Shown: in pieces, positions 1,267 to 29,026 of the stretch
Numbering within the stretch: the first letter of the stretch is position 1
Layout: each line of letters starts with the position of its first letter
Assembly: GCA_016930255.1 (NCBI GenBank)
Contig: JAFGHB010000052.1
Coordinates: forward strand, 1 to 41,148
Length of the DNA stretch: 41,148 nt
From: Methanomicrobia archaeon
GTDB lineage: Archaea; Halobacteriota; Syntropharchaeia; Alkanophagales; Methanospirareceae
Direction of reading: 5' to 3'
The notes under the pieces: generated by a model
The model's input: the letters and a program-made list of their open reading frames with translations, nothing else
The model's database searches: none
What the model was told of the DNA's origin: nothing
Translations under genes and position numbers: made by a program

Positions 1267-2985
1267 ATGGGGGCATTATTACGTATTCAGGGGCTTTGTA
1301 AGCGATATGAGCTATCAAACATAGGAAAGGAGTTAGTAGCGCTCGATAACGTGTCGTTCGAGATGGAGAAGGGCGAGACTCTGGGGATAATAGGGCGGAG
1401 CGGCGCAGGTAAGACAACGTTGCTTCGTATGCTTCGTGGCTACGAGCTATTTGACGATGGTGTTATCGAGCTCGATGGTGTGAGCGTAACGCGAGACTCA
1501 CCCTATGCAGATTTCCGAATGCTTCGCGAGAAGACCGCGTTTCATCTTCAGCGCTCGTTCTCGCTTTATAGTAGTTCCGTAATTGACAATGTAATAAGAC
1601 GACTGAGAGCGAAACAGGTAGGTTATGAAGAGCTCCCGGAGTTTGAGGACGAATACGAGGAGTTGAAAGAGGAGGCGTTTAAAATCCTTGATCTCGTGGG
1701 ACTGCGAGACAAATGGAATCATCTCTTCCCGATCTTGAGTGGTGGAGACAAGCAGCGGGTTTTGCTCGCCCGTCAGCTTGCGAAAGAGCCCGCATTATTA
1801 CTGCTTGACGAGCCCGGCACGATGTCCGACCCAATCACACGGAAATATCTGCTTGAGAGTTTGAAACGGGTGAAAGAGCGAACGGATTTGAGCATGTTGC
1901 TCGTCTCGCATATGCCGGACGTGCACAGAACTCTTTGCGATCGCGTGCTCATGATGGAGAAGGGACGAATCGTAGAGGGTGGAGATACGGAAAGTATAAT
2001 CGAGAAGTTCTTAGCGCCGCTTGAGCCGGTAAAACCGCTAGCTCCGATAAAAGATGAGAAGCACACGATGGTCTGGATCGACGGTGCCTGGAAGAAATAC
2101 GATCTCATCACCTCCAGCACATTGATGCGAACGATTGAGATGCAAGATATTAATATCAAGATTCCGAAGGGCGACATACTGGGAGTAATAGGTCCTTCTG
2201 CAATGGGTAAGACCGTATTGATGCGGTTACTGGGCGGCTTCGAGAAGCCGGATAATGGCCATATTCTGATAAGGATCGGGACGGTGGACTTTGCTAATAT
2301 CGCGGAATACGGTGAACGGTCGATAGAGGCGCGGAGCAAATTGGGCATTATTCATCAGGAGTTCGCATTACCACCGTACCAGCTCGTTCAGGACCTCTTT
2401 GCGCAGAAGATAGGGCTGAAGAAGTTCGAGCTGGTAAAGCAGGCGATGGAGAAGGCGAAGGAATACGGGATAAGTGACGTCACACTTGACGTGCTGTTAC
2501 GACTCGCGGACATGCCAGAGGACGAGGCGAAGGGCAGATTAAACGAGTTAGGGCTTGATCTGGATATATTGGATGCGTTGTTCCCGCGGTTACCATTGGA
2601 AGAGACGTTAAAAGCGGCCAAGCCGTACCTTAAAGCGGTGAACTTGCCTGAGGACATATTAATGCGGTTCGTTTCGGAAATGAGCATGGGAGAAGAGATA
2701 AGACTAGCAATTGCCGCTCTTTTAGCTTCTAACTGTGAGATTCTGCTCTTAGATGAGCCTTTTGGCGACATTGACCCGATTTCACTGCGTATTGTAACGA
2801 ATGCGCTGAAGGAGTTGAATCGCGAGTTCGACACGACCATACTGGTGGTGAGTCATCAGCTTGACATCATCAGAGAGCTGGCACACGAAGCGATCTTGAT
2901 AGACGAGGGAAACTTGGTGATGCGCGGCGATGCCGATACGGTCTGTGACACATTCATGGATCTAAAGTATAAAGAGCTGGAATGA
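1267..2985 (+). CDS. atwA: Methyl-coenzyme M reductase system, component A2 (tandem ABC ATPase)
   Basis: This soluble protein has two ABC ATPase domains and no membrane segment, as in component A2, which supplies ATP-dependent power for reductive activation of methyl-coenzyme M reductase. Domain 1 has Walker A GRSGAGKT at residues 43-50, an LSGGDKQ signature near 157 and Walker B LLLDEP ending near 182. Domain 2 has Walker A GPSAMGKT at 309-316, an altered signature MSMGE near 472 and Walker B LLLDEPFGD near 496. The second domain carries about 108 residues between its Q-loop (Q364) and the signature, roughly twice a normal ABC domain; this helical insert may belong to the family. The length of 572 residues is near family size. 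It is a marker of Mcr-based metabolism. It stands alone, followed by tRNA-Glu. Confidence 0.88.
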   Translation: MGALLRIQGLCKRYELSNIGKELVALDNVSFEMEKGETLGIIGRSGAGKTTLLRMLRGYELFDDGVIELDGVSVTRDSPYADFRMLREKTAFHLQRSFSLYSSSVIDNVIRRLRAKQVGYEELPEFEDEYEELKEEAFKILDLVGLRDKWNHLFPILSGGDKQRVLLARQLAKEPALLLLDEPGTMSDPITRKYLLESLKRVKERTDLSMLLVSHMPDVHRTLCDRVLMMEKGRIVEGGDTESIIEKFLAPLEPVKPLAPIKDEKHTMVWIDGAWKKYDLITSSTLMRTIEMQDINIKIPKGDILGVIGPSAMGKTVLMRLLGGFEKPDNGHILIRIGTVDFANIAEYGERSIEARSKLGIIHQEFALPPYQLVQDLFAQKIGLKKFELVKQAMEKAKEYGISDVTLDVLLRLADMPEDEAKGRLNELGLDLDILDALFPRLPLEETLKAAKPYLKAVNLPEDILMRFVSEMSMGEEIRLAIAALLASNCEILLLDEPFGDIDPISLRIVTNALKELNREFDTTILVVSHQLDIIRELAHEAILIDEGNLVMRGDADTVCDTFMDLKYKELE

Positions 2986-3074: not shown

Positions 3075-3149
3075 GCTCCGCTGGTGTAGTTCGGCCAAGC
3101 ATTTGGGCCTCTCGAGCCCACGACCGGGGTTCAAATCCCCGGCGGAGCA
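3075..3149 (+). tRNA. tRNA-Glu (anticodon CTC)
   Basis: A 75-base cloverleaf without encoded CCA. The acceptor stem GCTCCGC (3075-3081) pairs with GCGGAGC (3142-3148), with discriminator A at 3149. The anticodon arm is TGGGC-CTCTCGA-GCCCA, giving CTC (Glu). The T arm is CGGGG-TTCAAAT-CCCCG. There is no intron. Confidence 0.93.
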
Positions 3150-3231: not shown

Positions 3232-3258
3232 TGGAAATGTTTACACGTTGCATTTCCA
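3232..3258 (+). promoter_or_regulatory. 8-bp inverted repeat in the presumed 5' leader of tgt
   Basis: TGGAAATG (3232-3239) and CATTTCCA (3251-3258) form a perfect 8-bp inverted repeat with an 11-base loop, ending 25 bases before the tgt start codon. If transcription starts downstream of the AT-rich element near 3172-3182, the repeat is in the mRNA leader. It could be an operator or an RNA hairpin. Confidence 0.35.
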
Positions 3259-3283
3259 TTATACTAACTAGTGGGTGAGAGGG

Positions 3284-4483
3284 ATGACGGAGCTCGATTT
3301 TACCGTTCTCAAAGAAGATACAACGAGCAGGGCCCGTGTGGGCGTGCTGAAGACACGGCGTGGCTGCATCGAAACGCCGTACTTCGTGCCCGTCGCCACG
3401 CTGGCCTCAGTGCGCGCTCTGGGCTCCGATGACTTAGCTGCCCTGAACGTCCAGTGCGTTTTGGCCAACGCGTATTACCTCCATCTCAAACCGGGCGACG
3501 AGGTCATCAAGAAGCTGGGCGGCTTGCATGAGTTTATGGCCTTCAATCGGCCCATATTCTCAGATTCTGCGGGGTTCCAGGCGTTCTCGCTGGGATTTGG
3601 GCGCGAGCACAACATAGCCAAGATCGGCAGTATCTTTCCGGAGGGTCGAGAGGTCAAGGAAAAGAGGGAGAACCTGACGAAGATAACAGACGAGGGCATC
3701 CATTTCAAGTCCCCGTTCCAGGGCATCTGGCGATTTCTGGACGCCAAGACCTCGATGCAGATCCAGTCAAACCTCGGCTCGGACATCATCATGGCTTTCG
3801 ACGAATGCACCTCGCCCCTTTCTGATTACGAGTATACGCGGACGGCGATGGAGCGGACCCACGACTGGGCTACGCTTTCGTTGCAATACCACGACACGAA
3901 GCAGGCCATCTACGGTATCATCCAGGGCGGCTGGTTTGAGGATTTACGGCACGAAAGCACCGAGTTCATCACATTGCTCCCTTTCGATGGCATTGCAATC
4001 GGCGGCTCACTGGGCAACTGCAAGAGCGACATGCACCAGGTTCTGGAGTGGGTGGTTCCCGATCTGGACGAGCGGCCCCGACACCTATTAGGAATCGGCG
4101 AGATCGATGACGTCTTCGAGTGTGTGGAGCGCGGGATCGACACCTTCGACTGCGTTGCGCCCACGAGACTTGCGCGACGGGGTAACGTGCTCATATCGCC
4201 CGAATCGGGCGGTACGCAGGAGAACAAGTTCAAGATAGGCATCAAGTCACCGCAGTACGCAGAGGACGAGCAGCCGATCGACCCGGGGTGTGAATGCCCC
4301 ACCTGCCAGCGATACTCACGGGCCTATCTGCGGCATTTGTACACGGTCAATGAACTCGCGTATTTCCGGCTGGCGTCGGTGCACAACCTTCATTTCATGC
4401 TCCAGCTCATGGAGCAGATCCGGGCGTCCATCAGTAACGGCACCTTTAGCAGGTTAAAAAGCAAATGGCTGAAAAGAAGTTAA
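3284..4483 (+). CDS. tgt: Bacterial-type (queuine/preQ1) tRNA-guanine transglycosylase
   Basis: The product exchanges a guanine in tRNA for a deazaguanine base. Recognisable landmarks are the general base motif DSAGFQ (Asp94), the substrate-binding DEC (Asp173-Glu174-Cys175), the nucleophile in DTFDC (Asp289), and zinc ligands C336, C338, C341 and H367, with the same 26-residue C-to-H spacing as bacterial TGT. The 399 residues end soon after the zinc site, and no PUA domain is present. That matches the bacterial position-34 enzyme and not the larger archaeal archaeosine enzyme. The base-pocket loop usually reading GGLAVGE is here GGSLGN (from 240), one residue shorter, so the preferred base may be queuine. 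ATG 3284 was chosen over GTG 3275 because GGTGAG lies at a suitable distance. The transporter gene downstream overlaps by 19 bases. Confidence 0.85.
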   Translation: MTELDFTVLKEDTTSRARVGVLKTRRGCIETPYFVPVATLASVRALGSDDLAALNVQCVLANAYYLHLKPGDEVIKKLGGLHEFMAFNRPIFSDSAGFQAFSLGFGREHNIAKIGSIFPEGREVKEKRENLTKITDEGIHFKSPFQGIWRFLDAKTSMQIQSNLGSDIIMAFDECTSPLSDYEYTRTAMERTHDWATLSLQYHDTKQAIYGIIQGGWFEDLRHESTEFITLLPFDGIAIGGSLGNCKSDMHQVLEWVVPDLDERPRHLLGIGEIDDVFECVERGIDTFDCVAPTRLARRGNVLISPESGGTQENKFKIGIKSPQYAEDEQPIDPGCECPTCQRYSRAYLRHLYTVNELAYFRLASVHNLHFMLQLMEQIRASISNGTFSRLKSKWLKRS

Positions 4484-5214
4484 CGTGGAAAGCGGTAACC
4501 AGAAAAATGCGAGAACGGGAGCCGCTGTTACAATTAGACAAGACGCAGGCGATCATCATACTCTGCGGGTTCTACCTGTTCTTCTCCTTTGCCGGCAACG
4601 TCGCGGCCACGAAGGTCACCTATTTCGGCCCGCTCGTGATGGATGCGGGGTTCATCTATGCCCTTACGTTCACCTGGCGAGACCTGATCCACAAGCAGCT
4701 CGGCACGAAGGCTGCCATCACCACCATATGGGTGGCTGCGGCGATCAATCTCATTGCCGCGCTCTATTTCCAGCTCGTTGTGATACTGCCCGCAGAGCCC
4801 AGTTGGGCCGAAGCCGGCGGGCAAGCAGCCTGGCAGTTCCTCTTCGGCATCATCGACACCGCAGAAGGTGGTGCCTGGTGGCAGGCTTTATTCTCGCTCC
4901 AGCTCAGGATCGTGCTCGGCTCTATCATCACCATGGTCATCGCCGAGCTCATCGACACGTACGTCTATCACCTATGGACCACGGGCATCGGCAGGAATCG
5001 GCCGCAGTGGAGCAGGGTCTTCGTCTCCAATTCCATCTCCATTCCCGTTGACAGCATACTCTTCCCTCTGATCGCCTTCTCGGGCATCATCAGCACAACG
5101 GCCATGACTGAGATGTTCTATACCAATATCACGGTCAAAGCGATTGTAACGCTGCTGGCCTTCTGGACGATCTACCTCGTACCGGAGAAGCCGATTTATC
5201 GGGAGGATGAGTGA
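4465..5214 (+). CDS. YhhQ/VUT-family queuosine-precursor transporter
   Basis: This 249-residue protein has about six membrane helices (roughly 30-50, 55-72, 80-106, 148-166, 185-213 and 222-240) and the family-typical polar segment SNSISIPVDSILF followed by IAFSG. YhhQ family members import preQ0, preQ1 or queuine across the cytoplasmic membrane. The start codon lies inside the end of tgt, so the two genes are almost certainly co-transcribed and translationally coupled. Together they suggest uptake and insertion of a queuosine precursor with no de novo synthesis genes nearby. The precise substrate cannot be read from the sequence. Confidence 0.8.
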   Translation: MAEKKLTWKAVTRKMREREPLLQLDKTQAIIILCGFYLFFSFAGNVAATKVTYFGPLVMDAGFIYALTFTWRDLIHKQLGTKAAITTIWVAAAINLIAALYFQLVVILPAEPSWAEAGGQAAWQFLFGIIDTAEGGAWWQALFSLQLRIVLGSIITMVIAELIDTYVYHLWTTGIGRNRPQWSRVFVSNSISIPVDSILFPLIAFSGIISTTAMTEMFYTNITVKAIVTLLAFWTIYLVPEKPIYREDE

Positions 5215-5235
5215 CTCGAAAGATAAGAAGGTCCA

Positions 5236-5248
5236 TTTCGTTTTTTCT
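5236..5248 (+). terminator. Oligo-T terminator after the tgt-transporter pair
   Basis: Six consecutive T (5241-5246) lie about 27 bases after the transporter stop codon, matching archaeal T-run termination. They mark the border to the AT-rich island. Confidence 0.35.
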
Positions 5249-5465
5249 TAGTGTAGATTGCCAAATCCAGAATAAAATACTTTATTAAGAAATAACTCAT
5301 AATATGGTAATATTTTTTACATAAAAAGCAAAATTTGAAGCATCCGACGGAGAGAGAAAAGTTTGCATTTTAAAGCATGCAGGAGTAATTCCAGAATTTT
5401 GACCTCATTGCTAGCAGTTCAATCTAATACATGTAATTATGCTAATTCTTTTCTGAAAAAATAGA

Positions 5466-5480
5466 AAAGCTTATATATTA
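5466..5480 (+). promoter_or_regulatory. TATA box of the tubulin-like operon
   Basis: CTTATATATTA is centred near 5474, about 26-30 bases before ATG 5504, with a purine-rich GAAAAG immediately upstream that could act as BRE. This spacing predicts a leaderless mRNA for the first gene. Confidence 0.55.
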
Positions 5481-5503
5481 GGAATTTTGTAATCGTTTAT
5501 GCG

Positions 5504-6229
5504 ATGAAAAATCTAAAAAACCTCATGCTAGTATTTATTGTCCTTACCGTTATTGCAGCGCTTATTCCAACAACTTTGGCGATCTATGTTTCTGAGCGGG
5601 GAATCTTGGAGGGGATGTGCGAAGGGGATGAAGTTGTAAAGTTTCAAATTGATGTTACAGGTGTACCAAGGCCTTACGGTGTAAAAGTTATGACCGATCT
5701 GAGAAATCCATTGCTACTGCCTGAAAATTTGGAAAGCGAGAGTTATAACGCCGAGGGTAACTCCCTTTTTATAAATCCGCCAGCTACGGAGTTTAGCGTT
5801 ACAATCTCTGGCACGACTCCTCCTTCCTACTACAGGGAGCCCTTCGGGACTCGTAACTTGATAAAACTAAATAATGAAGAATATTTGTATTACCATGTCT
5901 TTATAATTGACGATGAGGGAATAACACAAGAAGATTTCGAGAAACCAAAAAGAGTTTTCAAGCTTGAAAAACCGGAATTTTATAGAGAAGGTGAAACAAA
6001 GATTGAGTCAATAGAAAATGAACAATTAAAGGCAATTGCATTATCCCTACTCGAGGAGGGTCTTTTCACTGATGCTTTAAATTTAACTGAAGTTCCAACA
6101 AACTTTCAACCATTAGAGTGGTATAAAACTTGGTGGTTGTGGTTTATTATTGGATTAGCTATTGGAGTATTAATGTTTTATTGTATTTTAAAAGTGACAA
6201 AAACTGAAGAAGACGAGGAGGGATTATAA
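5504..6229 (+). CDS. Exported single-pass membrane protein, first gene of the tubulin-like operon
   Basis: No known family was recognised. Residues 5-27 form a signal peptide or signal anchor (LMLVFIVLTVIAALIPTTLA). Residues 28 to about 205 look like an external beta-rich domain containing alternating hydrophobic and polar strands and a Pro/Ser/Thr-rich middle. A hydrophobic helix at about 211-231 (WFIIGLAIGVLMFYCI) precedes a short acidic cytoplasmic tail (TEEDEEGL). The likely topology is an outside domain with a small inside tail that could dock a cytoplasmic partner. It starts a transcription unit: the next gene begins 4 bases after its stop. Codon use is strongly AT-rich, like the rest of the island. 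Confidence 0.72.
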   Translation: MKNLKNLMLVFIVLTVIAALIPTTLAIYVSERGILEGMCEGDEVVKFQIDVTGVPRPYGVKVMTDLRNPLLLPENLESESYNAEGNSLFINPPATEFSVTISGTTPPSYYREPFGTRNLIKLNNEEYLYYHVFIIDDEGITQEDFEKPKRVFKLEKPEFYREGETKIESIENEQLKAIALSLLEEGLFTDALNLTEVPTNFQPLEWYKTWWLWFIIGLAIGVLMFYCILKVTKTEEDEEGL

Positions 6230-6233
6230 AAAA

Positions 6234-9098
6234 ATGTATCCTGATGAAGTTATAGGATTGGGCGGCACAGGGAAAACTCTGGTGAAAGAACTTTTAAAAA
6301 GCGAATGGTTTGTGGAAGACGTAATAAGCAAATGGGAGGAGAATATACAGCAAGGTGGTAGATTTGGAGGAACAAAGATAAGATTTATTGATAGTGATAC
6401 CAGTCAGATGCCTAGTGATAGGAAAGAATTGGAAGAAATTAAAAAAACCATAAACGAAGTAGGTAAAAAAGTGCTTGAGAGAAAAGATGATTATGCTGTA
6501 AAGGTTTTCAATCTAAACGAAAATGCATATGTAAATTTGGCACCAGGAATGTCCACTCAGCTTTTGGATCCAAAATTTGAAGCGGCAGTTTTAAAAAATG
6601 AAAAACTCAAAACAGAAGTTTGGTGGGTTGATGATGAAGACCATGGGCTCAAAAACTTTGCTAAAACGGTAGATCCCAACTTCGATAGTGCAAGTTTTGC
6701 TAATGGTGTTGTGAGGAAGAGATTCCTTGCGAAATCTCTTATATATTATTATCTAGCTACGAAAGAAGCAAGGCATCTAGAATTAATGGGGACGGGTCGG
6801 CACATTGCGATTGTAACCGCCTTTGGAGGTGGAACTGGAAGTGGTATATTTCTTGACTTAGCAAAGTGGTTGAAGAACTCTATACCTAACTGTGCTGTAA
6901 CATTATTTGCTGTATTACCAACAGGAGAAGAAAGAGGTTCTGAGGCGGTAAATGCTTATGCTGCTCTGAGTGAGTTAGAACAGGAAAAAGAGGATTATAT
7001 TGACTTGGCAATACTCCTACCGTTAGACCTCTCTGGATATAAAGGTGGAGACATAAGAATTCACCCAGGACTCAAAAGTTTCTCAGAAAATTTCCCATAC
7101 AATTTTTGTGGAATATACGATCGTGTCTTTACAGATGATGAATCCTTGGGTCAAGGTCACATAGAGTTCTCAAAAATACCTTTTAAAAAATTCGTCGTTT
7201 CTTCCGCATATAGCGTAAGATATGCTGCAGACAAGTTGAGAGATAAAGACTTCAAGGTGTCAGAAACTTTAAAAACTTTAAAGGAATATTGTGATACTGA
7301 GGAGAAACTTAGAGGAAAAATTGATAAGGTAATTAAGAGGTTTGAATTGCAGACTTCAAGAACTGAAGAGAAAGGAGAACTAAGCAGTGAAAGACTTAAA
7401 GAATTTAAAGATTGCTTTTATGAAGGTGACTTTCCTGAATTACTGCGTTCAACAAACTATGGTATTGTAAATAAGATGAAGCAATTCATTATCGAAGAAA
7501 AGTTATGGGAAGATGAACTATCAAGGTTGAGAGCTAGTGTACTTAGCATACTCGAAGAAGAGTTGCCCATAAAAGATAAAGACCTTTTAAATATTGCTAA
7601 AAAATGGCTTAAGAATATAGATAACTTCACAGAACAAGCTTTGGCAATTGAATCCATTCCAGATTTGCCAATAAGGGATATATTCATTAAAGTTGTTAAA
7701 TCGATTCCTATAGGGGCGGATAAAATGAAATTAGAGGATAGCATAAAGACGCTTAAAGTAAATCTTACGAAAATAGAAAGTGAACTAAATGAGATTGAAG
7801 GTAAAATACAAAATTTGGAGAAAATTAAGTTTATAAAGGACTTTTTAGAAAAGTGTAAAGAAAGAAAAGAAATCCTGTTTAATATGGATGCGCGAGAAAA
7901 CGAAGACAGATGGAAAAAGGAGATAAATCCTGAAGAAGCAATAATTAGACTTAGAGAATGGGGGGCATCTAGATTAGAGGAGGACATGAAAGGTCTATCG
8001 GAGTATTATAGATTATTGGCTACTGAAAATTATTACAATAAAGAGAAAAGAATTTTGAAAGTCATAAAAAGGAAGAGAAAACCAAAACTCGCAGAAAAGG
8101 CAAATGTACGTAAAGAGGACTTTGCGAGAAGACTAAAATATTTTAGGAAAGACACAGAAACGGATGATATCGAGTTAAGGGAGAACTTATTTGAAATATT
8201 TGCTTCACAAGAAATGGGGGCTATGAACGTTGAAAAAAATCTTGATTTATTAAAAAAGAGAAAGGGCGACCTGATAACGCAAAAGGAATCTAACGAAAAG
8301 TTGCAATCTCTTTCTACTGAGATATGGGACTTACTTGAACCTTCGGAGAAAGTTTATTCCCTACGGCAAAAAACGCATAATAAGATGGAAGATGTAATCA
8401 AAATTTCAGAAGGGGCGAGAAGAGGCGAGTTTGTGCTAGAGCTTATGCCTAAAGATTCAGGGATTATAAAAAACTTAACAGAAAGCTCAGACATCACGCT
8501 ATTTAATGAATTTGAAGGCAGTAGAGATTTTGATGAAATCCAAAGGGCACTAACAGATTCATTCAGGGAATTGGTAACGCCTGGAACGAGGGAAGAGAAT
8601 AAGTTCATGTGTGTCAAGGGGACAGTAACAGGAGAAATTAATGGAAGAAAGCGCAGTGTTGGTCCCAACTTTTTGAAGATTATTACGCTTTCTCGTAACG
8701 AAAATTTGCGACCAGATCTAAACTACGAAAGTATTCGGGATATTTACAGCGTGCCGGCTACTAACATCTCCGAAATACCTTTAAGACAGGGAGGGAATTG
8801 GGATACATCGTTCGTTACAGCGATTATGTTTCTTCCTCTAGAAATGCTTATAAATGTGAGTCGTTACTACGATGCGTACGTTGATAAGCTGAACCGTGAA
8901 GGTTATATAGGTATACTCAAGCATCACTCAGCGAATCTAGAGAGAGGGAAATTTTTTGTTAGAGAGAGATGCCTTACTGATACTGAGGTCATAGAACTTT
9001 CTGATATGCCGGAAGATGCACAAAGAGAGAAATTAGATGGTTTATACAAAGAAATTAGTTTAGGTAATCTAGTAGAAGGGAGTTCAAGAGGACTCTAA
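6234..9098 (+). CDS. Large tubulin/FtsZ-like GTPase (FtsZl/Tubulin_2 type)
   Basis: The N-terminal third shows the tubulin-superfamily nucleotide site. It contains a first strand-loop VIGLGGTGKTLV (residues 6-17), a second strand RFIDSDTSQ near 50-58, and the signature GGGTGSG at 198-204, preceded by IVTAF and followed by a Leu/Ala-rich helix, then VLPTGEERGSEAVNAY as in FtsZ/tubulin loops. At 954 residues it is more than twice FtsZ size. The C-terminal part (after about 450) is highly charged and helical, with coiled-coil-like segments around 510-560 and 660-700. It is neither cell-division FtsZ nor CetZ. The best fit is the FtsZ-like family predicted to remodel membranes. GTP binding and polymerisation are inferred. 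Short spacers of 4 and 2 bases tie it to membrane-protein genes on both sides. Confidence 0.75.
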   Translation: MYPDEVIGLGGTGKTLVKELLKSEWFVEDVISKWEENIQQGGRFGGTKIRFIDSDTSQMPSDRKELEEIKKTINEVGKKVLERKDDYAVKVFNLNENAYVNLAPGMSTQLLDPKFEAAVLKNEKLKTEVWWVDDEDHGLKNFAKTVDPNFDSASFANGVVRKRFLAKSLIYYYLATKEARHLELMGTGRHIAIVTAFGGGTGSGIFLDLAKWLKNSIPNCAVTLFAVLPTGEERGSEAVNAYAALSELEQEKEDYIDLAILLPLDLSGYKGGDIRIHPGLKSFSENFPYNFCGIYDRVFTDDESLGQGHIEFSKIPFKKFVVSSAYSVRYAADKLRDKDFKVSETLKTLKEYCDTEEKLRGKIDKVIKRFELQTSRTEEKGELSSERLKEFKDCFYEGDFPELLRSTNYGIVNKMKQFIIEEKLWEDELSRLRASVLSILEEELPIKDKDLLNIAKKWLKNIDNFTEQALAIESIPDLPIRDIFIKVVKSIPIGADKMKLEDSIKTLKVNLTKIESELNEIEGKIQNLEKIKFIKDFLEKCKERKEILFNMDARENEDRWKKEINPEEAIIRLREWGASRLEEDMKGLSEYYRLLATENYYNKEKRILKVIKRKRKPKLAEKANVRKEDFARRLKYFRKDTETDDIELRENLFEIFASQEMGAMNVEKNLDLLKKRKGDLITQKESNEKLQSLSTEIWDLLEPSEKVYSLRQKTHNKMEDVIKISEGARRGEFVLELMPKDSGIIKNLTESSDITLFNEFEGSRDFDEIQRALTDSFRELVTPGTREENKFMCVKGTVTGEINGRKRSVGPNFLKIITLSRNENLRPDLNYESIRDIYSVPATNISEIPLRQGGNWDTSFVTAIMFLPLEMLINVSRYYDAYVDKLNREGYIGILKHHSANLERGKFFVRERCLTDTEVIELSDMPEDAQREKLDGLYKEISLGNLVEGSSRGL

Positions 9099-9100
9099 TA

Positions 9101-9637
9101 ATGAAGTTCACGAAAAGGGATCTGGTACGAGCGATCGTGCTGGGGCTTCTCGGGGGTCTCTCTATTTTATTTTTCTCCATATTCCATAGCAAATATGGAT
9201 ATATTCCATATCTAAATGTGGATAAATTAAATTATTTGACTCCTATTTTAGGTTTTATAATTGGCTTGAGCGTGGGGAATTATGAAAGTGATGAAATTAG
9301 GTTAAGGATGTTCGGAGTCTTTATATTGGCCATTTCAGTGTTTGCATTAGTGAAGTGGTATCCTTTTTTTTCTGGTTATTTACTTGAATTAGGACTAGGT
9401 TTGTTTTTAGGTCTTGTAACATCTTTCTACGCTATTTACGTACACAATTATATTTTAGTAAAAATATCGAATGGTTTGGTAATGTGTGTCATATCAGTTG
9501 AGTATATATTGTATTTGTTAGTTCTTATAGACGGCAGAGTTCTTGATATTGAGGGGATTATTTGTGGTTTTTCCTCTCTTTTGATATTTCCAATTGTAGG
9601 CTACTTAGTTTTAAAAGGTAAAAGGAGTAAATTATAA
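9101..9637 (+). CDS. Six-helix membrane protein of the tubulin-like operon
   Basis: No family was recognised. The 178 residues are almost entirely hydrophobic, with about six helices near 12-30, 46-61, 70-88, 92-117, 124-142 and 151-171. A basic N-terminus (MKFTKRDLVR) and basic C-terminus (KGKRSK) suggest both ends lie inside the cell. It starts 2 bases after the tubulin-like gene and ends 2 bases before the GTPase gene, so translation is probably coupled. The context suggests a membrane anchor or platform for the cytoplasmic tubulin-like protein and GTPase. A transport role cannot be excluded. Confidence 0.7.
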   Translation: MKFTKRDLVRAIVLGLLGGLSILFFSIFHSKYGYIPYLNVDKLNYLTPILGFIIGLSVGNYESDEIRLRMFGVFILAISVFALVKWYPFFSGYLLELGLGLFLGLVTSFYAIYVHNYILVKISNGLVMCVISVEYILYLLVLIDGRVLDIEGIICGFSSLLIFPIVGYLVLKGKRSKL

Positions 9638-9639
9638 TT

Positions 9640-10593
9640 ATGGGGACAACAGCGCTTCTGGGAAGGAGAAGTGCAGGAAAAACAACATTTACTTGCATGT
9701 GTTATTCGGTTGCAGATACGCTCCCTTGGTCCACTACATTTCAACCTGAAATAACAGATGAAACGGACATCCTAAAGATTTTAGACGATTTTATTAGCGA
9801 AAAATTATTGCCTCCAGAAACGCCTAGACGAATTTGGAATCTTACATCGATACCAGTAGTGAGTCGACTGTATGATGAAGAAATTCTTTATGTAGATTGT
9901 GCTGGAGATATACAAATGGAAGCACTTAAAGAAATTTATGACAACATTGAGAAAAAGGGGAGAAAAGGTTCTTTGAAATTAATTTTATCAAATATTTCTG
10001 CGAGAGAAAAAAATGAGGAGTTGAATGATTTTGTAGATTCCTTTATACTTAAAAAGTCGTTTTCCAGAAGTCAAGCTAAAGAATTGGGAAAAATTAAGGC
10101 TGATATTAAAGTAAAAGTAAAAATTGCTTTCGTAAAATCTATTTTTGACGCTAATCGGTTAATCGTATTAGTTGATGGGTCTGAATTAAGAAATTGGCAA
10201 GAAGGAGGAACAGAAGGCTTGTATGAGAGTCTTAATATTTTTACCAAAATTATTGAAGAGATAAAATTTTCGAAAGTTGCCGTAGTCATTAGTAAAGGGC
10301 ATCTTTTTGGAGTAAATAAAGACAATTACAAAAGTAGGCTAGAATTTATTGAAAGAGAGTATCTTAAGAAGTATCCGGGGACAAAATCCTTGATCAACGC
10401 TAGATTTAATAGAATAAAGGTTTTTTGCGTTGGAGTCCCCTCAGCAGGCTATAAATGCGAGATATGTAAGCGCTTTTATCCGAGAGAGTCGTACTACATA
10501 GAAAGGCCATGGTGCTGTGACATCCCCACTCGGGAAACTTATACAGATATAAACGAGATATTTGGTGTGGAACAAATCATGAATTGGCTTTGA
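9640..10593 (+). CDS. P-loop GTPase-like protein with a C-terminal cysteine cluster
   Basis: The protein begins directly with a strand and a Walker A motif GRRSAGKT at residues 8-15. Residues 82-90 read LYVDCAGDI, matching a G3/Walker B DxxG (Asp86-Gly89). A later strand, VAVVISKGH, sits where the G4 NKxD motif would be but lacks the canonical Asp, so nucleotide specificity is uncertain. Near the C-terminus C273, C276, C292 and C293 (CEIC and WCCD) could bind zinc. It has 317 residues and no membrane segment. It is the fourth gene of the tight operon. A distinct GTPase is a stated partner of FtsZl-1 proteins in published genome-context work, which fits this arrangement. Confidence 0.68.
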   Translation: MGTTALLGRRSAGKTTFTCMCYSVADTLPWSTTFQPEITDETDILKILDDFISEKLLPPETPRRIWNLTSIPVVSRLYDEEILYVDCAGDIQMEALKEIYDNIEKKGRKGSLKLILSNISAREKNEELNDFVDSFILKKSFSRSQAKELGKIKADIKVKVKIAFVKSIFDANRLIVLVDGSELRNWQEGGTEGLYESLNIFTKIIEEIKFSKVAVVISKGHLFGVNKDNYKSRLEFIEREYLKKYPGTKSLINARFNRIKVFCVGVPSAGYKCEICKRFYPRESYYIERPWCCDIPTRETYTDINEIFGVEQIMNWL

Positions 10594-10650
10594 AATGATT
10601 TCTAAAATGACTACATGAAAAACGGTTACCACTAAATGAGGATCGGAGGG

Positions 10651-11061
10651 ATGTTAGATGTACACAAGGATGTGCATAAAGGGAATGGTCGCTACGCGAG
10701 GTGAATGGTAGGAGTTGAATGATGAAGAAGGATCATTTTCCGACGATAGGAAAAATCCGGACGATTTTGTAAAGGCCCTATCGGGGGGGGGGGTAAGATG
10801 GCGATCGAGGCAGCGGCCCGGCATCTGACGGAGTCGGTCTACAGGGTGTTAACGAAATGGGAAGCTTATAAAGAGGTTGATAAGGATGAAAATAAGATAG
10901 GAAGAGCCGCATCTTTCTCCTTATCCCCGCGAGGACCAGTAAAAATAGTTGAAGCAAATATGAAAACGACGATTAACCATGTGCTGCGGAAGGAACGTAA
11001 AGATGAATGTCGACCCGAGAAGTTGATGTATGGAGAAGGGATGAGTGAATATCGGGTTTAA
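10651..11061 (+). pseudogene. Decayed IS110-family transposase remnant
   Basis: Two pieces in the same frame resemble the two ends of an IS110/IS116/IS902 transposase. At 10651 a short frame reads MLDVHKDVH, like the N-terminal DVHK block holding the first DEDD catalytic Asp, and stops at 10702. From about 10771 the frame reads KGPI, a glycine run, then MAIEAAARHLTESVY, like the C-terminal Transposase_20 segment (GPI...G..., then EAA.H). The middle domain is missing. An 11-G tract (10783-10793) sits in this part and could hide an assembly length error. The GC-richer composition differs from the AT-rich island around it. The remnant separates the four-gene operon from the next island gene. Confidence 0.5.
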
Positions 11062-11109
11062 TATAATGCAGCCAAAAAGTAAAATATGGACGGGGGGTGC
11101 TTTTCAGAG

Positions 11110-12504
11110 ATGCAAATCGAGAAATCATTTTCTAGAAATCATGAACTAGATGTTGGGAATACTGAGGCATCTAATGGAAGTAAGGTAAAAAAGTTGCAAA
11201 TTGTACTTTCCGAGGGGGCACATGTATTAAACCCTGAGGGTTATATCGAAAGAGGTAGAAGAGGAATCGAACCAAATACAAAAGAGCTTTTAAGTTCCTT
11301 ATTTGATACCTACGGTTGTTTTCTCATTTTTGATGGAAAACAAATACTTTTTGCCACTCCACTTAAGTGTTCAGAAAGAACGGGTGGTGGAGGTGTTAGA
11401 CCCAGTTATAGAGTGGGTGTATTTAAGGGTTTATTTGGTGGTAACGAAAAAATTGAAAATTGGCTTACTAAAGCGGAATCCAAGATAAGGGAGGAAATAA
11501 ATGATACAACAAACGGGTTCATTGAGTTTTTTGAAAGCGCAAATCTCGTATTTAACTTACCAAATATCTCCAAAAGCGATAGCGATATAGGATATACACT
11601 TATGAATGTGGTCTTTAAGAATAAAAATATCAAAACTAGAATAAGTGGACTTTTAGCAGCTAATATTTTAATGCTTGAAAAGCATCCATTCTCTTTTTAT
11701 ATTTCTAATAGCGACGAAAACGTAGAAAAATGGAATTTTGATGTAATTATATCGAAAAATTGTGTAAAAAAAGAAGATAAATACTCCAATATATATGATT
11801 TTATCATAAAAAATTTCCGATTTTATACACAAGGACATCTGGAAGAAATAATTGAAATTGCTCTTGAACGAGTAGATTTCTATCCGCCAGAATACATTTC
11901 TTTTCTCTGGAAAATAGAGCGTATGGATATAATAAAGGAACTCATATCTCAAAAAAAAGTCTCAAAAAATCAACTTAATCAGTTCAACATAGAGCAGAAG
12001 TTAGAGTTGATAGAAGAGCATTTTGAGCCCTTTATTGCGGTAGAAAACATAAAAACCATGCTATTGAGGAACGGGCGGCCTTCAATATCTCCACCTGCTT
12101 TGAAAGAACCAATTATTAGAGACATTGTTTTAGAAAAAGATAGAATAATGCTCCAAAAAATTCCCCCATCTAAAATCTCGGAGACTTTAAGAAAGTATGG
12201 CTATGAAATAAAAAAATCTAAAGAAGCGGCTGTTCTTCTCAGAGGATATTTGGAACGAAGGGTTGAGAGTGAAAGTCTAAAAGATTTTGATGAGGAAGGG
12301 GGAGTGGACCTATTATCTAAACTTTTAAAATTGGATTTATTAAATGAGAATACACGAGAGAAAATCATCAATAAAATAGATAGTAAAAACGATTTGAAAA
12401 TATTATGTAAAAAGGAAGCTATTTGGAATAAGTGGGAAGGAAAAATTAAGAAAAGATGGAAGGAAATACCTGAAGAGGTAGAAGAAGAGGTATATGAATT
12501 GTAA
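11110..12504 (+). CDS. Unknown 464-residue cytoplasmic protein at the end of the island
   Basis: No family or motif was recognised. The protein is soluble-looking, rich in Lys, Glu, Ile and Asn, with a mixed alpha/beta N-terminal part to about residue 190 and a helical C-terminal part with many charged Leu/Ile-spaced segments ending EEVEEEVYEL. ATG 11110 is preferred because GGGGGGTG lies 10 bases upstream and an AT-rich TATA-like element (about 11057-11068) predicts transcription from near 11090. An in-frame ATG at 11086 would add eight residues. AT-rich codon use matches the tubulin-like operon. It may be a former fifth gene of that operon now cut off by the IS110 remnant, but this is inference. 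Confidence 0.62.
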   Translation: MQIEKSFSRNHELDVGNTEASNGSKVKKLQIVLSEGAHVLNPEGYIERGRRGIEPNTKELLSSLFDTYGCFLIFDGKQILFATPLKCSERTGGGGVRPSYRVGVFKGLFGGNEKIENWLTKAESKIREEINDTTNGFIEFFESANLVFNLPNISKSDSDIGYTLMNVVFKNKNIKTRISGLLAANILMLEKHPFSFYISNSDENVEKWNFDVIISKNCVKKEDKYSNIYDFIIKNFRFYTQGHLEEIIEIALERVDFYPPEYISFLWKIERMDIIKELISQKKVSKNQLNQFNIEQKLELIEEHFEPFIAVENIKTMLLRNGRPSISPPALKEPIIRDIVLEKDRIMLQKIPPSKISETLRKYGYEIKKSKEAAVLLRGYLERRVESESLKDFDEEGGVDLLSKLLKLDLLNENTREKIINKIDSKNDLKILCKKEAIWNKWEGKIKKRWKEIPEEVEEEVYEL

Positions 12505-12920
12505 ATAATTAAACGTATATTTTGTTTGAATTAAATAAAAAATATACAACAATTTCTGCTTAAGCTTTGACTAAATGTTCTTACTTTCTGTTTTGGTCTT
12601 AGTTCATTTGTTGTAGCGTATCTCTGTTTTGAAGCTGTAATTACTTTTTATTTGTTTCATTTGGTTTTGAAAAAGTAAAAAAATGAAGAATCAGAGTAGT
12701 GGAATGTTTTGACGATTTTTTGTTTATAGCGAATTTTAGATAAATGTGTTATTTATCGTGGGCTATCAGATTTGCTCTGCAAAATTCTGGGTAACCCCCA
12801 GCACCTCACCATTTTTCACTCTAACAGAGAAGGTCACGATCGTGCCTGCAGTTCCAAAAACTAGTAGATGTATTTAAATCCATAGCGATACTCTCTTTTT
12901 AACACAACATTTTGAGAAAT
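12505..12920. other. AT-rich intergenic region closing the island
   Basis: No gene is supported in this stretch of about 415 bases between a plus-strand and a minus-strand gene that converge. The first 250 bases are very AT-rich with many T-runs suited to termination. On the minus strand about 12770-12870 reads like a short coding fragment (GTIVTFSVRVKNGEVLGVTQ) ending in a stop. It has no start codon and is preceded by another stop, so it may be a relic. Confidence 0.35.
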
Positions 12921-13391
12921 CTATTCCTTCCCCAAAAACTCATCCAGCTTTCTATCCGCAGTTGTTTCTGTCAGCCCTCTGTGCTCGTAGCTCTTCTTGT
13001 CGTCGACGATGTGAATTACAGTGTGCCCGCGCTGTGTAAGCGCATCGGCGATAAACCGCCGGTGGCACCGGAAGAAGAGCAGCTCCGCGCACATCAATGC
13101 CACCCGCTTTGACGCGGCAAGCTCTTCCACGCACGCCAACCCTCGCTCGAATTCCGGCGATTCCATGTACTTGCGATAGCCGCCTTTCCGGTAGCCGCCG
13201 AGCCGTCCTACATGATAGTATTCAATACCGTGCTGCTCCAGGCATTCTTTGAGGCGATCGCGTGTGAAGTGCCGGTAGCGGGACGTCGGGAACCGTCTGA
13301 CGTCCACGATAACCTCGATCTGGTACGCTCTGAGCACGTGCAAAAACTCCTTCATACTCCTCGTACTCGTCCCAACGGTCCAGAGTTTCAC
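12921..13391 (-). CDS. DUF488 family protein
   Basis: The 156-residue product has the DUF488 hallmarks: an N-terminal WTVGTSTRS, a conserved VDVRRFPTS segment near residue 30, a GGYRKGGY block near 67, and the motif CAE followed by CHRRFIAD around 100-115. The biochemical role of the family is unknown; the conserved cysteine and the Cys-His-Arg suggest a small catalytic or binding site. The likely start is GTG at 13391, because the in-phase frame has no nearby ATG and the family begins here. It is transcribed alone, convergent with the island. Confidence 0.82.
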   Translation of the reverse strand: MKLWTVGTSTRSMKEFLHVLRAYQIEVIVDVRRFPTSRYRHFTRDRLKECLEQHGIEYYHVGRLGGYRKGGYRKYMESPEFERGLACVEELAASKRVALMCAELLFFRCHRRFIADALTQRGHTVIHIVDDKKSYEHRGLTETTADRKLDEFLGKE

Positions 13392-13505
13392 TTTCTCTGT
13401 GCCTCATGAATGTAGTGGTGATTCACAGCAAGCGGCTCGCCGCTTCGTAGGAAGACATGCGAGGGCGTTCATGAAGTTACGCTCTGCTATGCGCAAGCTG
13501 GCTAG

Positions 13506-24889: not shown

Positions 24890-26842
24890 TCACAGCGGTG
24901 TTCCGTCCAGGAACCCCCGGAGCAGCATTGGCCATAACCCCTTCCAGAACAGCATCTTCAGTTCGTACACGCCTTCCACGCCTCGCTTCTCCGTATAAAA
25001 GCCCGCCTTCTCGAAGACCCGGAGCATCGCCTTGTTATCCATCAGCACGTCCGCAGTGAACCCGAGAAGGCCCTGCTTCTTCGCCAGATACGTGAGATAC
25101 GACAACAGCTCCGTGCCGATCCCCTGGCTATGATAATCGTCACGTACGGCGAAGGCAACATCCGCAGTGTACGCCGTCTCGTTGATCGCATACTGTCCGA
25201 TGCCCACGAGCTCTTCCTTATCCTCCTCCTCCTCCAGCACCGCCAGGATCACCATCTGCTTCGAATAATCAATGATCACAAATTCCTGTAGCCGATCGTG
25301 CGGCATATCTTTCCGCGATGAGATGAACCGGTGATAGAGCGTATCGTCCGAGAGAGAATAGAAGAAATCCTTCAAGAGCGGCTCGTCACTTATCTTCACC
25401 GGTCTCAGCTTGAGCTCAAGGCCGGTCTTGGTGGTTCGGTAGGTCTCCAGGTCTTCCGGGTACTCGCCGCGTGCACCTGATATAAACGCCTGATCGCTGA
25501 AGATAATGTTCAGTTTCTTCGCCTCTTCTATCAGCCACGGTCTGAATTTCGGGTGCGCGATCGCGATCAAGCCCATGGCGCGTTCTCTGATGTTCTTACC
25601 GTGCAGATACGCGATCCCGTACTCGGTCACGACATACTGGATGTCGCCCCTGTTCAGCGTGACACTGGCACCTTCTTTGAGGAAGGGCACGATCCGTGAG
25701 ACGGTGCCGTCCGCTGCGGTTGACCGGAGCGTTAGTATCGTCTTCCCGTTTCGCGCTAAAACCGCGCCGCGCATAAAATTCGCCTGACCGCCGATCCCAC
25801 TGTAAAATACCTTTCCGATGGATTCCGCCGTCGCCTGCCCCGTCAGGTCGATCTCAAGCGCACTGTTGATCGCCGTCATGTTGTTATGCTGCGCGATGAT
25901 CAGCGGATTGTTCGTATAGTCCACCGTTCTGAACTCGATAGCAGGATGATCGTGGAGATACTCGTAGGTCGCCTTTTTGCCCATACAGAACGTTGCCACG
26001 GTCTTTCCCCGGTTGATGCTCTTCTCGCTATTGTCAATAACACCCTGTCTCAGCAACGCGACGAGGCCGTCACTCAGCAGTTCCGTATGCACGCCCAGAT
26101 GCTTCTTCTTGTGGAGATTCGACAGAATCGCATTCGGTATGCTGCCGTAGCCCACCTGAATGGTATCTCCGTCCTGGATGAGACGCGAAACGTACTTCCC
26201 GATCTGCGCGGTGATTCCCCCTTCGACCGCCGCACTGTATTCTAACAACGGTTCATCATAAGGAACGATAAAATCCACATCGTCAATGTGAACAAAGCTG
26301 TCGCCATGCACCCGCGGCATATACGAGTTGACCTGCGCGATAACCACCGCGGCTTTCTCGACCGCAGCCTTCACGATATCCACACTCACGCCCAGGCTCA
26401 TATACCCGTGTTCATCGGGCGGCGAGGTCTGCACGAGCGCGACGTCGATCGGGATAACCCGGCGATAGAACAAATCAGGGATCTCAGACAGGAATATGGG
26501 CGTGTAATCGGCAAAGCCTTTGTTCACCGATTCTCTGGTACTGTCGCCGACGAAGAACGAGTTATGCCGGAAATTATCCCTGAATTTCTCGTCCGTATAG
26601 GGTGCGACACCAAGCGTCCAGACGTGGAATACTTCAGCATCGAAGATCGCCTTCGGATGCGATTCCGCATACTGTATAAGCGCACGGACGAGATACTGCG
26701 GCTCGCCGCAGCCGGTGCCGATAAAAATGTGCGCACCCCGATGCACATGACTGAAGATCTGCTCTTCCGTCACGAACTTTGCGGGATACCTGATCTTCAT
26801 CTCATCCAGTGTGCCGCCACGCTTCTTTTTACCGGGGCTCAT
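24890..26842 (-). CDS. Acetyl-CoA hydrolase/CoA-transferase fused to a GNAT acetyltransferase
   Basis: Residues 15 to about 470 form a family I CoA-transferase of the acetyl-CoA hydrolase or 4-hydroxybutyrate CoA-transferase type. The catalytic glutamate is E254 in GVHTELLSDG, followed by VDYTNNP, DLTGQATAES, YSGIGGQANFMRGA, VTEYGIAYLHGKN and IAHPKFRPWL. Residues about 480-635 form a GNAT domain with the acetyl-CoA loop RDDYHSQGIGTELL. The first half moves CoA between acyl-CoA and a free acid; the second may acetylate a protein or small molecule. ATG 26842 has GGTGAGGTGA directly upstream. The gene follows acetyl-CoA synthetase on the same strand at about 190 bases, so both concern acetyl-CoA/acetate. 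The fusion order is known in other microbes; its role is unclear. Confidence 0.88.
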   Translation of the reverse strand: MSPGKKKRGGTLDEMKIRYPAKFVTEEQIFSHVHRGAHIFIGTGCGEPQYLVRALIQYAESHPKAIFDAEVFHVWTLGVAPYTDEKFRDNFRHNSFFVGDSTRESVNKGFADYTPIFLSEIPDLFYRRVIPIDVALVQTSPPDEHGYMSLGVSVDIVKAAVEKAAVVIAQVNSYMPRVHGDSFVHIDDVDFIVPYDEPLLEYSAAVEGGITAQIGKYVSRLIQDGDTIQVGYGSIPNAILSNLHKKKHLGVHTELLSDGLVALLRQGVIDNSEKSINRGKTVATFCMGKKATYEYLHDHPAIEFRTVDYTNNPLIIAQHNNMTAINSALEIDLTGQATAESIGKVFYSGIGGQANFMRGAVLARNGKTILTLRSTAADGTVSRIVPFLKEGASVTLNRGDIQYVVTEYGIAYLHGKNIRERAMGLIAIAHPKFRPWLIEEAKKLNIIFSDQAFISGARGEYPEDLETYRTTKTGLELKLRPVKISDEPLLKDFFYSLSDDTLYHRFISSRKDMPHDRLQEFVIIDYSKQMVILAVLEEEEDKEELVGIGQYAINETAYTADVAFAVRDDYHSQGIGTELLSYLTYLAKKQGLLGFTADVLMDNKAMLRVFEKAGFYTEKRGVEGVYELKMLFWKGLWPMLLRGFLDGTPL

Positions 26843-27034: not shown

Positions 27035-28993
27035 TTATTGAGCCCTGTCTAGTGCCTCGACTGCCTCGGGGTTTGCGAGCGTTGAGATGTCACCCACTGG
27101 CTCGCCACGCGCCTTTGCCTTGATAACCCTGCGCATGATCTTACCGCTTCTCGTCTTCGGCAGATCCTCCACGAAGCTCATCTCGTCCGGAACCGCAATC
27201 GGACCGATCTCCTTCCGTACCCACTTCCGTAATTCATCCTTCAACTCCGCTGAGGGTGTCTGCCCCTTCTTGAGGATGACGTATACAATGACCGACTCGC
27301 CCTTCAATTCATGCGGTATGCCAACAGCCGCAGCCTCGGCAACTGCTGCATGACTCACCAGAGACGATTCGATCTCCGCTGTCCCTATCCGGTGCCCAGA
27401 GACATTAACGACATCATCTGACCTGCCCTGAATCCAGAAGTAGCCGTCGGTATCCATCCGTGCAACGTCCCCCGCAAGATACACGCCGGGGAACCTGCTC
27501 CAGTACACGTCTTTGTACCGCTCAGGATCACCGTAGAGGGTTCTGAGCATACCAGGCCACGGTTTCTTGATTACCAGGTACCCACCTTTGTTCGTGATCG
27601 ATTCACCATCCTCGTTGAAGATGGCGGCATCAATCCCTGGTAACGGCCGCGTGGCTGATCCCGGCTTCAGTGGCGTGATCGGAAGCGGAGATATCATAAA
27701 AGTCCCCGTCTCGGTCTGCCACCAGGTGTCCATGATCTGACACCGTTCATTGCCAATAAGCTTGTAGTACCACATCCATGCCTCAGGGTTTATCGGTTCA
27801 CCAACGGTCCCGAGTAATCTGAGACTGCTGAGGTTGTTCTTCTTCGGCCATTCATCACCAAGGCGCATATGAGCCCTGATTGCGGTCGGCGCAGTATAGA
27901 GTACCGTTATGCCATGTCGCTCGATCATCTCCCACCATCGGTCACCGCGGGGAAATGCCGGTGCACCTTCGTACATGAACGATGTCACACCCATCATCAA
28001 GGGCGCATAGACGATATAGGAATGCCCGGTAACCCAACCAACGTCAGCCGCACACCACCAGATGTCCTCGTCCTTCAGATCAAAGACATACTTGAGGGTT
28101 CCATAAATGCCAACGGCATAACCGCCATGCACGTGCACGATTCCCTTCGGCTTCCCGGTAGTACCCGAGGTGTAGAGAATATACAGTATATCTTCTGCAT
28201 CCATCTCTTCCGTTTCTGCACTGGTAGATTCACCCTTTATCAGTTCGTCCCAGAAGAGATCGCGATCTTCGGTCATTGGCATATTGCCGTTATGCATTCG
28301 CCTGACCACCACCACGTGCTTTATTGATGACGCATCCAGCAATGCTTCATCTGCGCTCGCTTTTGCATCGATGGTGCTCCCTTTCCTGTAGAACCCGTCG
28401 ACGGTTATCAGCACCTTTGCTTTACAATCGTTTATTCGGTCCCGCAGCGCCTTTGCGCTGAATCCCGAGAAGACCACCGAGTGAACGGCCCCAACCTTCG
28501 CGCAGGCAAGCATCGCCATCGGTAACTCCGGTATCATTGGCAGGTAGATTGCCACCCGATCACCCTTTCCAACGCCGAGGCTCTTTAATCCGTTTGCGAA
28601 TTGGTTCACCTCCATGTAGAGGTCCCGGTACGTTATCTTCCGGACTTCGCCGTCTTCTCCTTCCCAGATAAACGCCACTTTGTTCTTATGCCCCGTATTC
28701 ATGTGCCGGTCAAGGGCGTTGTGGGCTATGTTGAGCTTACCGTCGGTGAACCACTTGAAGAATGGCGCATCACTATCGTCGAGCACTTTGCTCCACGGCT
28801 TGAACCAATCGAGTTCCTTCGCAATTTCGCTCCAGTACCAGTCTATGTTCTGGGCTTTAGCGAGCAATTCATCGTAGCTCGCGATTTTATGCTCCTCCAT
28901 CCATCTCTTTACGTTGCTCTGCTGGACCAACTCCGCAGGGGGTTCGAAAACCCGTTCTTCCTTCATCAACACATCCAATTCTTTCTTTACCAT
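27035..28993 (-). CDS. acs: Acetyl-CoA synthetase, AMP-forming
   Basis: The enzyme activates acetate with ATP and CoA to acetyl-CoA, AMP and pyrophosphate. Clear motifs are the phosphate loop [11 protein letters not shown], the adenylate-binding [11 protein letters not shown], and the hinge/catalytic C-terminal motif [11 protein letters not shown] with catalytic K618. The 652 residues equal the usual 640-660. ATG 28993 is chosen because GGAGGAGG lies five bases upstream; a GTG at 29026 lacks such a site. The lysine motif PKTRSGK is the known reversible acetylation target of Acs enzymes, of interest because a GNAT-containing protein is encoded next door. A distant TATA element (29171-29186) implies a leader of about 160 bases. 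Confidence 0.93.
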
Positions 28994-29026
28994 TTTTACC
29001 TCCTCCGCCGGTAGCTTTTCCACCAC

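Follow-up and report, generated by a model that had tools for sequence, protein, structure and literature searches.

A gene for a bacterial-type tRNA-guanine transglycosylase (TGT) and an overlapping gene for a YhhQ-family transporter are part of a variable island in an archaeal chromosome, contained in a window (the whole stretch of DNA analyzed) of 41,148 nucleotides (Table 1). In our judgement there is about an even chance that the TGT-YhhQ pair is a salvage unit, which would import a 7-deazaguanine and exchange it for G34 of tRNAs with GUN anticodons, the imported base most likely being queuine. We infer transport, inserted base and tRNA position 34 alike from sequence, the position from the enzyme family.

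Table 1 Features of the window that bear on the TGT-YhhQ pair and its surroundings.
Feature	Positions	Strand	Details
Tandem ABC ATPase, conserved left flank of the island	1267..2985	+	Distantly like TIGR03269 (277 bits, below the cut-off of 517)
tRNA-Glu (CTC), behind which the TGT-YhhQ island sits	3075..3149	+	ARAGORN, Rfam RF00005
Class A bacterial-type tRNA-guanine transglycosylase	3284..4483	+	399 aa; TIGR00430, Pfam TGT, tree, AF2 model, PDB match
Class A insertion after the FSLG motif	3602..3658	+	Residues 107-125; low model confidence; coordinates computed from residue numbers
Substrate-pocket loop GGSLGN	4001..4018	+	Residues 240-245; has one residue fewer than bacterial GGL[AS]VGE; coordinates computed from residue numbers
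YhhQ/QPTR-family transporter, TGT-linked subtype Y_T1	4465..5214	+	249 aa; start overlaps the TGT gene by 19 nt
DUF488 gene, conserved right flank of the island	12921..13391	-	Pfam DUF488, 86 bits

The window TGT scored 456.1 bits against TIGR00430 (bacterial Tgt, tRNA-guanosine(34) transglycosylase; curated cut-off 306.75) and only 110.2 bits against the archaeosine model TIGR00432, below its cut-off of 350. The Pfam TGT domain covered residues 16-397 of 399 (403.7 bits) and was the only domain returned by the Pfam search, with no PUA-type C-terminal domain. The preliminary description had claimed a 399-residue bacterial-type TGT without a PUA domain in an archaeon, and the bacterial type and the lack of a PUA domain are confirmed by these scores. 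This length corresponds to the ATG start, and an alternative GTG at 3275 gives an open reading frame of 402 residues (3275-4483); the start previously placed at 3232 lies upstream of both codons. The zinc ligands C336, C338, C341 and H367 (CxCxxC...H) and the aspartates D94 and D289, assigned as catalytic, are conserved in an alignment of 36 rows (the window TGT and 35 relatives), and we take D94 and D289 to be D102 and D280 of the Zymomonas mobilis enzyme. The bacterial motifs noted earlier were thus kept at the zinc site and the catalytic aspartates, but the substrate pocket is not plainly bacterial. The AlphaFold model (pLDDT 89, pTM 0.88) had low confidence only at residues 40-43 and 107-125, and it matched Z. 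mobilis TGT over the whole length (Z 50.7, 363 residues, rmsd 1.6) and human QTRT1 (7nq4_A, Z 49.6).

Among 392 genomes drawn from the window's phylum, TIGR00430 matched in 57 at a threshold of 1e-60, with 56 of the 57 over the curated cut-off. The pocket loop splits these genomes into class A (n = 49, the window genome included), which have GGSLG followed by K/N/Q and then S/C, and class B (n = 8), which have the bacterial pocket GGLSIGEPK. Three named class A loci come from a Methanothrix bin, a Woesearchaeota genome and a Pacearchaeota genome. GGSLG occurred in none of the bacterial rows with a readable loop (nine rows were unread). In a DPANN phylum, 121 of 279 genomes had a bacterial-type TGT over the cut-off; the best 30 loci of the 125 genomes matched included 14 with GGSLG, 6 with the IFGD form, 7 with bacterial-like loops and 3 with close variants of GGSLG (GGALG, GGSFG and GGFFG). 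The unit was earlier presented as that of an archaeon; archaeal it is, but given these counts in the phylum and in DPANN it is no one-off. The Woesearchaeota genome carried two bacterial-type TGTs: a class A enzyme with a YhhQ next to it, and another one (loci L025 and G060:C20:401586-402683).

In a 120-row TGT tree (quick search with SH-aLRT supports, no bootstrap), class A formed a single clade (100) within the bacterial TGTs, nearest to candidate-phyla-radiation (CPR) bacteria (96), and class B formed a separate clade (87). The tree was built without 3 of the 49 class A genomes (two with partial genes, and G298, removed by a script filter), and its bacterial rows above L075 were thinned to every third. 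In line with the preliminary description, the window enzyme groups with bacterial TGTs and apart from archaeosine enzymes, so that one refutation named there, clustering with the latter, fails; a divergent archaeosine enzyme is ruled out by this tree and the TIGR00430 and TIGR00432 scores. Near class A in the tree are four CPR TGTs (L027, L028, L034 and L046), three of which show an unusual pocket loop, GGESIGY/GGETIGY; their genomes have QueA.

In reference numbering, the class A pocket has residue 231 deleted, Leu at 233 and Glu235 lost; the shortened loop and the loss of Glu235 were seen in all class A sequences read, and the alignment has two class-specific insertions. C175 of the window TGT, the Cys158 equivalent, is kept as in preQ1 enzymes. 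The last Gly of GGSLG was considered to be the Gly that replaces Val233 in queuine enzymes, and this assignment was dropped because the shortened DPANN loops and the CPR sister group show position 234; the related loops GGIFGDPSKE, GSIFGDPKEE and CPR GGESIGY and two alignments put it there. Val233-to-Gly is described as giving space for the queuine cyclopentenediol, yet as not sufficient (PMC3660597), and human Gly232 and Gly233 are described as accommodating this group (PMC6165067). The loop given for bacterial queuine TGTs is GG[LS][AS]G (PMC11570991); the GGSLG of the window TGT resembles it letter by letter but does not have this form with Gly at 233. With one residue fewer, Leu at 233 and no Glu235, base specificity cannot be read from the class A pocket, which by its sequence corresponds neither to the bacterial form nor to that of eukaryotes and Chlamydia. 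The window TGT thus shares the fold, zinc site, catalytic residues and PTRxxR segment of Z. mobilis Tgt (preQ1, position 34), but differs in the shortened loop 231-235, the lost Glu235 and the insertion after FSLG. It likewise has the fold of eukaryotic QTRT1, but lacks Gly at the 233 equivalent and has Cys where QTRT1 has Val161. ArcTGT (TgtA) belongs to the same superfamily, but the window TGT falls short of its model TIGR00432 and has no PUA domain, and the genome encodes a separate ArcTGT, which lies on a different contig and scores 592.9 bits against TIGR00432 (cut-off 350). The third protein with a TGT domain in this genome (607 aa) is a putative ArcS.

The transporter noted earlier next to the TGT was confirmed by both models, with 104.1 bits on Pfam Vut_1 (PF02592; cut-off 27.2) and 61.5 bits on TIGR00697 'queuosine precursor transporter', only slightly over the cut-off of 50.95. 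Its ATG sits within the TGT gene, 19 nt upstream of the end of the TGT stop codon, an overlap on which the previously suggested translational coupling is reasonable. A tree of 79 YhhQ rows places it in the Y_T1 clade, all 16 members of which adjoin a class A TGT; another clade, Y_T2, numbers 34 rows, and for 11 of these a TGT lies no more than 2.3 kb away. Each of 48 class A genomes had exactly one YhhQ of the TGT type, belonging to Y_T1 or Y_T2, at a distance from the TGT of ≤200 bp in 21/49 class A genomes and ≤2.3 kb in 25/49. Y_T1 and Y_T2 are not neighbors in the tree, where their relation is uncertain owing to long inner branches; should the two be separate, the TGT-YhhQ partnership would have formed twice.

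The two TGT classes differ in the genes that accompany them. QueA was found in 0/49 class A and 8/8 class B genomes (Fisher 6e-10, taking genomes as independent and ignoring shared ancestry), and also in none of the three named class A genomes and in all four CPR genomes tested. A TGT-type YhhQ was present in 48/49 class A genomes, no YhhQ in any of the eight class B genomes, and YhhQs of another clade in 2/20 TGT-negative genomes, which were picked mostly for completeness from about 55 relatives (class A vs TGT-negative, Fisher 2e-13, again with genomes taken as independent and shared ancestry ignored). The sole class A genome without YhhQ (G303) is 73% complete; the named Methanothrix, Woesearchaeota and Pacearchaeota genomes have one, two and no copies, respectively. 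YhhQ without QueA in class A, and QueA without YhhQ in class B, point to salvage as the likely role of class A. In the class B genomes (G212, G256, G342, G348, G369, G372, G391 and G394), Tgt adjoins QueA and QueC is present; searches found neither QueF (0/8) nor YhhQ in them, and hence no source of preQ1.

QueF was found in 5/49 class A, 0/8 class B and 1/20 TGT-negative genomes. The searches for queuosine-related enzymes covered QueA, QueF and QueC. Full QueC matches (E < 1e-50) were found in 34 of the 49 class A genomes and partial ones in 2 more, and in 20 of these 36 QueC-bearing genomes the TGT-type YhhQ is the sole YhhQ and may therefore carry a base other than preQ0. In the window's family, none of the 4 class A genomes had QueC, compared with 7 of the 9 TGT-negative genomes tested. 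No true QueC was found in the window genome (G000), G003, G004 and G215; the three of these that are at least 75% complete have a second, ordinary YhhQ, and G003 (56% complete) has one YhhQ only. The preQ0 for archaeosine may thus be salvaged in these four genomes. Over all class A genomes, an ordinary second YhhQ was found in 10/13 without QueC vs 15/36 with it, a weak difference (p 0.05). The window genome (2.23 Mb in 87 contigs, 95.5% complete, 0.9% contamination) yielded no QueA, QueF or true QueC. The salvage unit proposed earlier is supported to this extent, by the transporter beside the TGT, by the absence of these three genes and by the class A/class B split.

In the proposed mechanism, the archaeal cell would take up an already finished 7-deazaguanine base from its environment through the YhhQ-type carrier, and the bacterial-type TGT would swap it for guanine 34 of tRNAs with GUN anticodons (Asp, Asn, His and presumably Tyr). 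U33-G34-U35 is present in tRNA-Asn, tRNA-Asp and tRNA-His, and tRNA-Tyr was not found among the 42 tRNA matches. The unit would run in parallel with the usual archaeosine pathway, in which a separate TGT acts at position 15 and the second YhhQ of the genome probably supplies preQ0. Queuine is favored as the imported base because no enzyme making preQ1 (QueF) or finishing it (QueA) was found. Analogy with Chlamydia, where direct queuine salvage is ascribed to TGT and QPTR without other queuosine genes (PMC11570991), supports this reading: the window genome has TGT and QPTR without QueA, QueF and a true QueC. Like the window unit, the Chlamydia trachomatis system combines bTGT and QPTR and lacks QueA and QueF; the putative window unit differs in its archaeal host with an archaeosine pathway and in a pocket without GG[LS][AS]G. 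The pocket, without Val233-to-Gly and with Glu235 lost, speaks against queuine.

The same pocket bears on the other bases that might be inserted. The unit could import preQ1 and insert it at position 34, to be left unfinished as may happen in Bartonella henselae, an explanation we regard as having a limited chance. B. henselae is described as having bTGT and QPTR without QueA and enzymes that prefer preQ1, with traces that suggest unfinished preQ1 in its tRNA (PMC11570991), and both the retained C175 and the lack of Gly at 233 would suit such an enzyme. However, the shortened loop and lost Glu235 of all class A sequences read do not form a preQ1 pocket, and the class A pocket is kept across the whole archaeal clade, DPANN included, unlike a decaying remnant. 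Slightly less probable still is that the enzyme inserts preQ0 or targets another tRNA position or another RNA, a third deazaguanine modification special to these archaea. Such a role would agree with a single clade that has its own pocket loop, two class-specific insertions and no Glu235, and with the QueC matches in many class A genomes; but a user of endogenous preQ0 would not need the dedicated YhhQ present in 48/49 genomes, and the overall fold of the model matches position-34 enzymes. Returning to salvage at position 34, a broader proposal is tentative: class A might be a third branch of position-34-type TGTs, common to the phylum and DPANN, that uses a pocket distinct from those of preQ1, preQ0 and eukaryotic queuine enzymes to write a salvaged 7-deazaguanine, possibly a base not yet named in archaea, into archaeal anticodons.

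The remaining explanations concern the locus itself. Bacterial contamination of the metagenome bin, named in the preliminary description as a possible refutation, might be suspected from the bacterial TGT family and the assembly in 87 contigs, but its probability is negligible. The order ABC, tRNA-Glu, TGT and YhhQ is identical in an independent assembly of the same genus (G003, TGT 85% identical), where the contig then ends, and in another genus (G215) the TGT-YhhQ pair is located between tRNA-Glu and DUF488. The same tRNA-Glu marks the site in G002, G003, G005, G006, G007 and G215. In the sister species G002, G005 and G007, the DUF488 gene lies at most about 70 bp behind tRNA-Glu and the pair is absent (blastn); G006 has other genes at this site, and no bacterial-type TGT above the cut-off was found in any of these four genomes. 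Class A is also present in several single-contig genomes of the phylum. The shared flanks thus refute contamination, unless the same misassembly arose in several assemblies, and the pair is placed in a variable archaeal island because its flanks are common to relatives and sister sites lack it. It is improbable, though less so than contamination, that the pair travels as a passenger on a mobile island and does little itself. The island spans about 9.8 kb behind tRNA-Glu, alongside an AT-rich tubulin-like cluster, and the pair is patchy in the window's family f1 (4 genomes in the sweep); however, the reading frames are intact, the catalytic and zinc residues are conserved, and the pair recurs in other families. 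No exact att-like direct repeat of at least 12 nt inside the tRNA-Glu was found elsewhere in the window, a short-word blastn search of 5201-13500 with this tRNA and its flanks returned no match longer than 13 nt, and PHROGs and PADLOC gave the island neighbors no mobile-element or defense assignment.

Two further observations were made in the window. The AT-rich cluster of the island (5504-12504; GC 33-37%) has a GC3 of 0.28-0.34, compared with 0.42-0.76 in 13/14 other genes measured, and encodes a 954-aa Tubulin_2-like protein and four neighbors without any Pfam match. Outside the island, a gene at 24890-26842 fuses an acetyl-CoA hydrolase/transferase with a GNAT acetyltransferase domain and adjoins an acetyl-CoA synthetase-like gene (27035-29026).

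In the literature sampled, queuosine is a modification of bacteria and eukaryotes, and archaeosine one of archaea. That archaea can have bacterial queuosine genes is already reported: according to a 2021 study, 34 archaeal genomes, including 12 from DPANN, have the queuosine pathway in full or in part, with QueA and QueH occurring alongside Tgt (PMC8204110). These DPANN/Methanosarcinales genes share with the present ones a bacterial Tgt in archaea; Tgt with QueA and QueH resembles class B (QueA, no YhhQ), and class A is the reverse. YhhQ homologues are stated to occur in archaea, with preQ0 salvage proposed (PMC5372724). In a literature represented mostly by titles and abstract openings, with few subscription journals, we found no report of queuosine in archaeal tRNA; likewise, titles and abstract openings gave no description of archaeal TGT-YhhQ units, and the split between salvage (class A) and synthesis (class B) did not appear in the literature searched. 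Surveys of tRNA nucleosides in A. fulgidus and M. burtonii reportedly list Q in neither.

Should the prediction for class A hold, some archaea would carry both queuosine and archaeosine, at different tRNA positions, and would depend on neighbors for the wobble base, as animals do. As the pair recurs in many archaea, these can be examined directly for a tRNA change that has until now been attributed to bacteria and eukaryotes.
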